DNA of 38,080 bases, taken from assembly GCA_002011115.2 (NCBI GenBank), contig MTME02000095.1, positions 1 through 38,080 on the forward strand. Reading direction: 5' to 3'. The stretch comes from Candidatus Pyrohabitans sp. JdFR-17 (GTDB lineage: Archaea > Hydrothermarchaeota > Hydrothermarchaeia > Hydrothermarchaeales > BMS3B). This document shows, piece after piece, positions 34,751-38,080 of the stretch (within the stretch, counting starts at the first letter, position 1; every line of letters begins with the position of its first letter). Position numbers and translations under genes: made by a program. The notes beneath the pieces are model-generated. The model was not told the DNA's origin, ran no database searches, and was given only the letters and a program-made list of their open reading frames with translations.

Positions 34751-34851
34751 AACTTTTCAAAATTCTTCCGTAGAAATAAAACATGGCTTAGCCAACGTTT
34801 AGTCGTTTGTTTTAACATGCGTACATAGATCAAAAAGTTCCTTATTATGAT

Positions 34852-35553
34852 TTAACTCTTGATCGGAGATGTCTTGAACAATGTATGTTCTTTGTCGCTT
34901 TTCTTTAAATCTAATTTACCTTCTCTTACTAATACTGAGGCAATTATACACAATGTAGGAGGAGATACGCCAAAAACATTTGGAATTGTCAAATCATGTA
35001 GAAGATCTATATATGTATTTTCCTTCAATAATCTCTTAGAAACTTCTTTTTCATCTTGAAGGTTTATTCTCCATTCTTTTGAATTAATACAGTGCGTATC
35101 ATTTTGGAACGATACCCTAACGTTAAGAGTTTTTCCGTCTCGATTGAAATTTAATCCAGGTGGACGAACAGCAAATTCAAAAAGTTTATTCAATGATTCA
35201 AATAAATATACAGATCCAACTAAAATTTCCCTTACTTTTTCCCGATATTTTCTAAAATAACTTGGTCGATCCCGATGAGCTCGTCTATCATCAAGAGCAA
35301 ATAATTTTTTGAATAGTTCATAAACTTCTTCTCTTGTATGTGGGTAAAAAGCTTGTTTGAAGATGGAATTCCAAATATTTTTGTTATTTATTAAGTCTGC
35401 ATATTCACTCCTGCTAAAATGATAAAAAAGGTTTAAGTCTATCCCTCTTTTCAAACCAACAGGGGCCCTTTCTGGAGTTCTCTCAATTCTATCAATTATA
35501 TGCGAAGGAAGTTGTTTAATATAATTAGTCCCAAAATGAAGGGAGAAAGCCAA
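34852..35553 (-). CDS. HEPN-like C-terminal part of the NTPase gene (separated by frameshift)
   Basis: The 233-residue frame resembles a Swt1-type HEPN domain: LNLFYHFSRSEYADLINN, WNSIFKQAF, then LFKKLFALDDRRAHRDRPSYF followed by a long helix (REKVREILVGSVYLFESL). The RRAHRD segment takes the place of the RNxxxH ribonuclease motif but is degenerate. It overlaps the large NTPase frame by 58 nt in the -1 frame. Reading backwards past its ATG the frame stays sensible (KIRSSFYLAFSLHF) to a nine-A run. It is therefore most likely the true C-terminus of the NTPase and not a separate protein. Confidence 0.7.
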   Translation of the reverse strand: MAFSLHFGTNYIKQLPSHIIDRIERTPERAPVGLKRGIDLNLFYHFSRSEYADLINNKNIWNSIFKQAFYPHTREEVYELFKKLFALDDRRAHRDRPSYFRKYREKVREILVGSVYLFESLNKLFEFAVRPPGLNFNRDGKTLNVRVSFQNDTHCINSKEWRINLQDEKEVSKRLLKENTYIDLLHDLTIPNVFGVSPPTLCIIASVLVREGKLDLKKSDKEHTLFKTSPIKS

Positions 35554-37940
35554 ATAGAAGCTTGAACGAATCTTTTTTTTTCAGCATGATCACTTATAAG
35601 ATCCACCGATTGAATAAAGCCGCCTTGATTATATGCAGCTATACCATCATATAATACACGTAGATCTCTCCAATCCAAATTTGTTTCCGCCAAATTTACA
35701 ACTCTATTTGCATTTAATAAACCAGAAAGAATTTCAAGAAGTACATCAGTTGACTGATAATAATCGTGTAAATAAATAAAGCGAGTACTGCTAGATGGAA
35801 TTTCTCCTATTAATATTCTTTCAATTACATCGGGGATTTGAAGATCAACCCAAGTTTTTCGTACCCATTCACTTGGTGTCATGTTAGAGCCTAGAACTAT
35901 TTTTATGGCATTTACTAAGCTCTCTAATGCTGTTTGGGAGTAACTTACAAGAAGATCTGTGGATAATTCATAGTCTGCTATTAGTATTTTATGATTGTTA
36001 ATGAATTGCTGCATCAAAGGAACAATTTCGGGCCATTCTGATTCCCAAGTTGCAAGAATATTATCAACTACTGCTAATCTGGTATCTTCTTTGTCTTTCT
36101 TTTTTGGGACACTTTTAATATCCATACCAAACGATCGAAATATGATTTCTGGTGGAAAACCTCTCTCATTTAAAGACTCTAGTGCTGCTAGGAAATCTTT
36201 TGATAATCCCCATGCAACTTTACCTTTATTTATTTTGACTCTCTGTATTAGGCCACATTTTCTAAGTAGCCAAAAAGCTCCTTTATTTTTAAAGAACAAT
36301 TCATCTTCTTCAAGCGAAAAATTGTTTTTATATATGGATTCAAGAACGCGAACACACGCTTTCCTTAAAGTTGGTTTTTCTTCAGTATTATTTCGATAGA
36401 TCAAATAAGACTCCTTTATTACAGACTTCTTTAGCAATTCGTCAATATTTTGGAGAGCGTCCATATCGATAGATACCGATATTCCAGCTTCTTCATATTC
36501 ACCTTTCTCTAGTCTGGGGAGTATATAATCAATAAAATCTCTGAAATAAACGTTCCCGCCTAACTTATCTGATAGGTAGTTGTATGCAAATTCAATCGCC
36601 CTTTTATTAAAAAATATAGGTACAGTAGTTTCTTCTCTCATATAGGACTTAAAGCGTTTTTCGAGCAATGTATAGGCATCTTCAAAAGTTATGGGGGGGA
36701 TTTCGTCTATTCTATAGTAAGACCCACTATATGATGGATCATGTGTCAACTTTCTTTTCCAATAAGGAGAAGCAGCAACTAATATTGCTATATTAATGCC
36801 CTTCGAATCTAAATACTCATGGAAATTTTGAAGCTGTTTTACAAATTCTAAGGAACTATCAAGTGTTGTTTCGGCTTTATGAAGTCCATCAATTGTTAAA
36901 AGATAGCCTTTCAATGAACATTTTTCTTTGAGATGGTCAAGGAGAGCAACTATATTGCTTTTATCAATATTTACTGCTCTGGCTCGAGGATCAATACTGC
37001 ATCTCATTCGTAGTGCTTCGCTAATTTCGTCATATATTGCAGAATACATATTACGTCTAATCATTTCAGGGTCATCTATAGGGTCTAAAATAGCCATAAT
37101 TGGGTATATAGACAATGCCGACAGTTTATGAGCAATATATTGAAATAAGGTTGTCTTACCAGAACCAAATTGCCCTGCAATTATTATTGTTTTCCCAAAA
37201 AGTTCCTCTGGACGATAAGAAATTGTTTGAAGGTAAATATCAAATATTTTCGTTTTTACGACAATTTCCTCGTATCTATCTTCAGGGATTCTATTCAGTC
37301 CATATTTCGTTGGGAATGGATCGTCCACAAGTCCAAGTTTCTCCCACCATAATAGTTTCCCTTCTCTTTGGTCGATCGGTATTGGTTCATTGGTTTTGCT
37401 AATATAGTCCTCAGGATTGATTACTTCAGGTAGATTATCGAGTTCGCTTTTGAATTTTTCCACAATCTTCTTTTCTTCTTCTATCTGACTTTTAAGTTTT
37501 TTCAGCTGTCCTCGTTCTTTTTCCAGTTTGATTTTTGCCTCTTTTATAGCTATATCTCGAAATTCTTTGGTTTTTCGTTGGATAAACTCTTCCTGCGATA
37601 AACGCGATAGATCTTCAACTGTAATCAAACCAGGTTTGATTCCTTCTAAACGAATTTTTAGGTCTTCTATATCCCTATCATGTAAATATTTTGAGAGGAA
37701 AGTGGAACTTTTTGAGAATTTAGTAAGGTCTTCGGGGGTCTTGATTTTAGATGTTTTAATAAGATATTCGATTGTCTCCTTTGCGATTTCTCTGTTTTTA
37801 AATCTATCAGAACTCTTTAAATTGTGACGATGGAAGTATTGGACCTTTTTATTCTTGATTAAATTAATCGAAACGTGTGGGGACGTTAGTAACAGAATGT
37901 TCTGCTTTACGAATTTTTTAATATGGTCTCTTTTTGACAT
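35496..37940 (-). CDS. Coiled-coil P-loop NTPase (STAND/AAA-like), candidate defence protein
   Basis: An 814-residue frame. Residues 115-170 are a charged coiled coil. The ATPase follows LGLVDDPFPTKYGLNRIPED, with Walker A GQFGSGKTTLF at 256-266 and Walker B YLLTIDGLHK at 346-355. A helical region and possible winged helix (FWLLRKCGLIQRVKINKGK) come next. The last 25 residues after AEKK (RFVQASIWLSPF) look like out-of-frame sequence: a run of nine A at plus-strand 35573-35581 lies just there, and a -1 shift joins the HEPN-like frame. The gene is AT-rich compared with its neighbours, which suggests transfer. NTPase-HEPN proteins often act in antiviral abortive infection; that role is inferred here. 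Confidence 0.8.
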   Translation of the reverse strand: MSKRDHIKKFVKQNILLLTSPHVSINLIKNKKVQYFHRHNLKSSDRFKNREIAKETIEYLIKTSKIKTPEDLTKFSKSSTFLSKYLHDRDIEDLKIRLEGIKPGLITVEDLSRLSQEEFIQRKTKEFRDIAIKEAKIKLEKERGQLKKLKSQIEEEKKIVEKFKSELDNLPEVINPEDYISKTNEPIPIDQREGKLLWWEKLGLVDDPFPTKYGLNRIPEDRYEEIVVKTKIFDIYLQTISYRPEELFGKTIIIAGQFGSGKTTLFQYIAHKLSALSIYPIMAILDPIDDPEMIRRNMYSAIYDEISEALRMRCSIDPRARAVNIDKSNIVALLDHLKEKCSLKGYLLTIDGLHKAETTLDSSLEFVKQLQNFHEYLDSKGINIAILVAASPYWKRKLTHDPSYSGSYYRIDEIPPITFEDAYTLLEKRFKSYMREETTVPIFFNKRAIEFAYNYLSDKLGGNVYFRDFIDYILPRLEKGEYEEAGISVSIDMDALQNIDELLKKSVIKESYLIYRNNTEEKPTLRKACVRVLESIYKNNFSLEEDELFFKNKGAFWLLRKCGLIQRVKINKGKVAWGLSKDFLAALESLNERGFPPEIIFRSFGMDIKSVPKKKDKEDTRLAVVDNILATWESEWPEIVPLMQQFINNHKILIADYELSTDLLVSYSQTALESLVNAIKIVLGSNMTPSEWVRKTWVDLQIPDVIERILIGEIPSSSTRFIYLHDYYQSTDVLLEILSGLLNANRVVNLAETNLDWRDLRVLYDGIAAYNQGGFIQSVDLISDHAEKKRFVQASIWLSPFILGLIILNNFLRI

Positions 37941-37978
37941 AGCTAACCTCTTAAATTATTTGTAAGATCAGTATATCT

Positions 37979-38029
37979 CCCCAATAAGTAGCTAAAAATA
38001 TTAGATTAAAAACCTTTCGGTTATTGGGG
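37979..38029. promoter_or_regulatory. Promoter region of the NTPase gene flanked by a 9-bp inverted repeat
   Basis: CCCCAATAA (37979-87) and TTATTGGGG (38021-29) are perfect inverted copies 33 bp apart. They enclose AT-rich sequence with a TATA-like TTTTTAATC on the minus strand and a second small dyad AACC-TTTC-GGTT. The NTPase ATG at 37940 has AAGAGGTTAGCT before it. A protein bound at the repeats could control this gene. Confidence 0.4.
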
Positions 38030-38080
38030 GGTTGTCGACGAATTCCACCAAAACGTGAACATTTCTTTTCAGAGCCAATT

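Follow-up and report, generated by a model that had tools for sequence, protein, structure and literature searches.

The alpha-L-fucosidase gene fucA1 of Saccharolobus solfataricus is an archaeal gene with a -1 split at an A run, where programmed -1 ribosomal frameshifting takes place at A-AAA-AAT; its full-length relatives differ in the length of the A run (PMC8211752). In Thermus thermophilus dnaX, transcriptional slippage at nine sense-strand As close to the gene's 3' end yields products with and without the C-terminal part (PMC1088944). Slippage at nine As during transcription is documented in bacteria (PMC1088944; PMC5009743), and when indels were introduced into an A8 run in the laboratory, they were bypassed to give a functional enzyme (PMC3812077). 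At the level of protein architecture, the HEPN superfamily includes HEPN domains fused to AAA+/STAND ATPases (PMC3710099), and the STAND/ORC-Cdc6 NTPases include NLR resistosomes, Apaf-1, archaeal ORC2 and BrxC.

The window analysed here, by which we mean the whole stretch of DNA under study, is one complete contig of 38,080 bases from an archaeal draft assembly (1.62 Mb, 101 contigs). Close to its right end lies a putative defence gene that is split, as fucA1 is, by a -1 break at an A run, and that carries, like dnaX, nine sense-strand As near its 3' end. It differs from fucA1, which has a stem-loop, tandem rare codons, another strain that shares the break, and protein evidence, no counterpart of which is seen for the window gene. 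It differs from dnaX in that the templated frame leads to the long product there and to the short product in the window, where the site also lacks conservation. As a frame break it is probably unremarkable: most likely the A run slipped recently, or the sequencing did, and a conserved switch is the less likely reading. The useful part is the gene family that it uncovered, a thinly spread archaeal family in which a STAND/ORC-like NTPase is joined to a HEPN-like C-terminal part and sometimes to an added TIR domain, and which is named by none of the libraries searched.

Reading frames across the nine-A run

The minus strand carries an open frame of 814 codons, here called the zero frame (35496..37940, read from 37940 to 35496), which encodes an N-terminal helical domain, a coiled coil, a P-loop NTPase and a winged-helix/helical region. 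Near its 3' end comes the minus-strand stretch ...GTGATCATGCTG-AAAAAAAAA-GATTCG..., whose run of As at 35573..35581 is exactly nine long (A9), and the zero frame enters and leaves the run in the register GCT GAA AAA AAA AGA TTC. The -1 frame (AAG ATT CGT...) is shut by a TGA at 35583-35581, just upstream, and is then open for 242 codons plus stop (34852..35580, minus strand). Joining the two frames by a -1 shift yields a protein of 1,029 aa (789 + 240), against about 1,020 residues estimated in an earlier note on this DNA, which had placed the break in an NTPase-HEPN gene with the correct coordinates and register. The same note had considered the zero-frame tail non-biological, and the 25 out-of-frame codons past the A run are indeed not homologous coding sequence, being unmatched by the homologue profile. 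Apart from the break, neither part contains a stop, suggesting that the break is recent.

A search of 394 related archaea returned two distant homologues, and profiles built from these returned more, in Asgard and Nanoarchaeota-phylum genomes. The junction is crossed in a single frame by 8/8 homologues that cover it (Asgard and Nanoarchaeota-type MAGs), including the intact proteins L005/L038 (Thorarchaeota MAG, 1150 aa), L006 (Nanoarchaeota MAG, 1074 aa), L035 (1086 aa), L036 (1044 aa), L037 (996 aa), L032 (1189 aa) and L033 (1078 aa), as well as the partial homologue L039. A profile was built from the C-terminal parts of eight homologues and compared with the window in all six frames (1,037 segments); it matched the -1 frame from end to end (positions 2-236, E 4.1e-21) and no other segment below E 1. 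Because all junction-spanning homologues are single-frame, the NTPase frame and the -1 frame are, by sequence comparison, one gene, which answers the question raised in the earlier note of whether homologues use one frame or two genes. The closest relative has only ~25% identity, and the pre-mutation allele is thus unseen. Single-protein peptide-pattern scans of genome and viral contigs, an alignment-based scan of viral contigs and a tblastn search against plasmids and phages gave no match. A Nitrososphaerota contig (L012, 942-1601) carries only a 220-codon NTPase piece, probably a relic of the family.

As the earlier note had recognized, the A9 site is a slippery sequence, and a textbook one, with the heptamer A_AAA_AAA of the X_XXY_YYZ type in the zero-frame register (GA A_AAA_AAA GA), and its nine As also reach the length of about nine or more A/T within a gene that characterizes transcriptional slippage of the dnaX type. 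The slippery site and the frame break are absent from all homologues found, in which the longest A stretch near the junction is 2-6. These homologues are all one residue shorter at the junction than the joined window protein, indicating that the A run has changed length. A stimulatory structure would lie 5-9 nt downstream of A9; pseudoknot-free folding gave only weak hairpins relative to shuffles (z of -1.1 for the 78 nt downstream and -0.05 for the surrounding 181 nt). Codon shuffling of the NTPase part produced A9 or longer in 38% of shuffles, and the run is therefore unsurprising in such an AT-rich gene; AT-rich homologues contain A9-A11 runs within intact frames, so runs of this length need not be signals. 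The lack of conservation, the lack of RNA structure and the chance expectation of A9 together argue that the frame break is private to the window sequence. Programmed slippage as a trait of the family, one of the possibilities in the earlier note, is not supported, given the single frames and short A stretches of the homologues and the missing downstream structure, and neither programmed nor phase-variable switching finds support in the sequence comparison.

No A/T run in the 1.62-Mb assembly exceeds nine, and only four reach that length, the other three being intergenic. In L015, a pair of intergenic A9/T9 runs (1501-1509 and 2147-2155), separated by 646 nt, have the context ATAATTTTTTTTTCGA in common, resembling a repeated promoter element.

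Domain architecture and predicted defence role

The NTPase part contains a Walker A motif, GQFGSGKTT (residues 256-264; 37149..37175, minus strand), whose core G-x-FGSGK is invariant in a three-way alignment, providing the P-loop expected of a STAND/ORC-Cdc6-type NTPase. It is preceded by a predicted coiled coil (~residues 112-170; 37431..37607, minus strand), which in the L006 model forms one long helix (115-166). Structures were modelled for the window C-terminal part alone and for homologue L006 as a whole. With the L006 model (mean pLDDT 77, pTM 0.45), Foldseek retrieved Aeropyrum pernix ORC2 (E 4.7e-6) and wheat Sr35 (E 4.1e-5), and also Apaf-1 and BrxC, all with low TM-scores, suggesting that the NTPase resembles STAND/ORC-Cdc6 folds. 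It differs from these proteins in matching no named family above cut-off and in having no recognizable sensor repeat domain. The best Pfam matches of the window protein (ATPase_2 and AAA_22) both fall under the gathering score, AAA_22 being above cut-off in homologue L005 only; NCBIfam gave nothing above cut-off, and a PDB sequence search gave no convincing relative. In PADLOC-DB, the window protein matched no defence system's own protein model, giving only weak P-loop matches (PtuA and mad8), and the family members L035 and L037 had no match.

The C-terminal part comprises a HEPN-like (Swt1-like) helical bundle (35167..35580, minus strand) with the motif DDRRAHRD, in which the conserved His is residue 102 of the C-terminal part, followed by a winged-helix-like alpha/beta domain (34861..35163, minus strand). 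AlphaFold2 predicts a confident fold for the -1 product (pLDDT 83.4, pTM 0.83), which adds to the homologue profile in identifying it as the C-terminal part of the gene. In a PDB fold comparison, the winged helix was the only portion matched, to ribosomal and MarR-type winged helices (Z up to 6.8). The bundle recalls the Swt1-like members of the HEPN superfamily in being C-terminal and fused to a P-loop ATPase. The HEPN_Swt1 profile showed similarity in three relatives (E 6.5e-5, 0.0043 and 0.086), each time below the Pfam cut-off, and did not match the window copy. The bundle differs in that the Arg of the RX4-6H motif is absent from the window and most relatives. The window copy reads A-L-D-D-R-R-A-H, with no Arg at the required positions; by eye, the His is kept in 7/9 sequences and the Arg in L033 alone (RNPWAH). 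Since this Arg is missing, RNase activity of the window copy is doubtful on sequence grounds. The 'effector domain' of the earlier note is uncertain: a HEPN_Swt1-like bundle is detected, below cut-off, in three relatives, and the window copy lacks the RX4-6H arginine. Compared with known HEPN-ATPase fusions, the window ATPase has no match above cut-off to DUF499 or to a named STAND family. Matches of the C-terminal part to Virulence_RhuM, Kunitz and Cas8a/Csx13 were rejected as chance. In L005/L038 (4398-7847), the HEPN His is lost and a C-terminal TIR_2 domain is gained (E 1e-26), suggesting effector exchange.

Some homologues adjoin defence genes: L037 lies next to the Gabija genes GajA and GajB (E 1e-238 and 1e-199), other family members adjoin restriction-modification genes, and an AbiTii-like gene is found near L038. 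By this association, a defence role of the NTPase-HEPN-like gene is predicted as likely. In L035 (1764-11653), a run of genes for Vsr, a C5 DNA methylase, a protein of 363 aa that by eye looks NurA-like but matches nothing in Pfam, HerA and a GHKL ATPase ends with the NTPase-HEPN gene, and may constitute a multi-gene defence system.

Explanations for the frame break

The break is probably a recent, genuine indel in the A run, private to this sequence and accompanied by leaky read-through, within a single gene of defence type. A horizontally acquired gene for a STAND/ORC-like NTPase with a HEPN-like bundle and a winged helix would have suffered an indel in an A-rich lysine stretch, A9 presumably arising through replication slippage. 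Plain translation would then end with an NTPase of 814 aa that lacks the C-terminal domain. Some full-length protein could be made as a minor product through RNA-polymerase slippage or -1 ribosomal slippage, as would be expected because nine As promote the former and A_AAA_AAA permits the latter, and further slippage of the A tract could reverse the change in subsequent generations. The frameshift would accordingly be incidental and leaky, with no conserved programmed signal. By analogy with bacteria and one archaeal gene, in particular the nine-A slippage and the A8 indel bypass seen elsewhere, such leaky rescue without programming is plausible. One extra A relative to the full-length relatives is also the situation proven for fucA1, and a functional shift is thus possible.

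A sequencing or assembly error, in which the true run length would keep one frame and leave the gene intact, is less likely, though the likeliest of the alternatives. A study covering 1,106 prokaryotic genomes attributed frame breaks that occur as singletons, and whose homologues are full-length, to indels or sequencing errors (PMC3711429), and such breaks are expected to be mostly sequencing errors; A9 is moreover the longest A/T homopolymer of the assembly, which is a metagenome-like draft in 101 contigs, with gaps of 100 N. Against this stands a control covering 20 contigs (270 kb of the assembly) and 74 coding runs (A/T of at least 7, G/C of at least 6), in which only A9 (1/74) was preceded by one long open frame and followed by another in a different register (242 codons), the fully checked sites being those with a gene end within 120 nt of the run. 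Runs without such a two-frame break include A7, T7, T8 and G7 elsewhere and a C7 within the same NTPase gene (36693..36699, minus strand), where the translation EIPPITFEDAY matches LPDITAEDAF of the relatives in the correct frame. The assembly is thus not generally broken at homopolymers, though a single error could have occurred at its longest run.

It is improbable, in our estimate, that an archaeal immune NTPase is switched by A9, with the gene yielding mostly NTPase without the HEPN-like domain and slippage yielding a minority of complete protein. Were this true, slippage by RNA polymerase, by the ribosome or in DNA replication would keep a potentially self-harming defence protein rare or bet-hedge it between cells. 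In its programmed form, i.e. -1 ribosomal frameshifting or transcriptional slippage at A9 that sets the ratio of NTPase with and without the C-terminal domain, we would give the idea about one chance in ten. The heptamer in zero-frame register, the nine As and the nearby zero-frame stop are consistent with it, as are the archaeal precedent of fucA1, whose A-AAA-AAT site has one A more than its full-length relatives (PMC8211752), and a weak GTGAT match, found by eye 7 nt upstream, to the archaeal anti-Shine-Dalgarno sequence. However, neither the site nor the break occurs in any homologue, no stable structure lies downstream, and the A run is expected from composition. If A9 did control the product ratio, an immune protein would join the very short list of archaeal cellular recoding genes, in which fucA1 is the proven -1 case.

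Phase variation, in which A-tract length would differ between cells and switch the full-length protein ON and OFF, is very unlikely. A9 is among the four longest A tracts of the genome and the sole genic one, lies within a costly defence-type gene, and has a length unlike that implied by the relatives; yet one allele was seen, dedicated contingency loci would be expected to have a longer tract, and the site is without a tract in every relative. A two-gene organization, with the NTPase followed by a stand-alone 233-aa HEPN-like protein from an in-frame TTG at 35553, was rejected, because both parts are fused in all homologues and a start at this TTG would remove part of the bundle's opening helix (helix 2-23).

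The AT-rich island

The NTPase-HEPN-like gene lies in an AT-rich accessory island (34751..38080, from the cupin gene stop to the contig end) with 32-34% GC, compared with ~50% GC in the host region. The window DNA matches that of three congeners (95, 88 and 80% identity) as far as the cupin gene stop and no further, the NTPase-HEPN-like gene is absent from four congeners, and no member of the class has it. The gene was probably acquired recently, at a site of high turnover. An Rfam search of the island gave no match.

The cupin-thermosome intergenic site (window 34750; L067 5011-5985; L068 5576-6308) is a turnover hotspot. It is occupied by the NTPase-HEPN gene in the window, by a 24%-GC ORF of 325 aa with the sequence LRNKYEH (a HEPN-like motif by eye; no Pfam match) in congener G001, and by a UPF0175/PIN-type toxin-antitoxin pair in congener G004. 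Upstream of the NTPase start, the inverted arms CCCCAATAA ... TTATTGGGG (window ~37979-38031), noted by eye, are a possible operator. Near the contig end, GTCGACGAATTC (window ~38034-38047) contains adjacent SalI and EcoRI sites, and is either a chance occurrence or the trace of a library linker.
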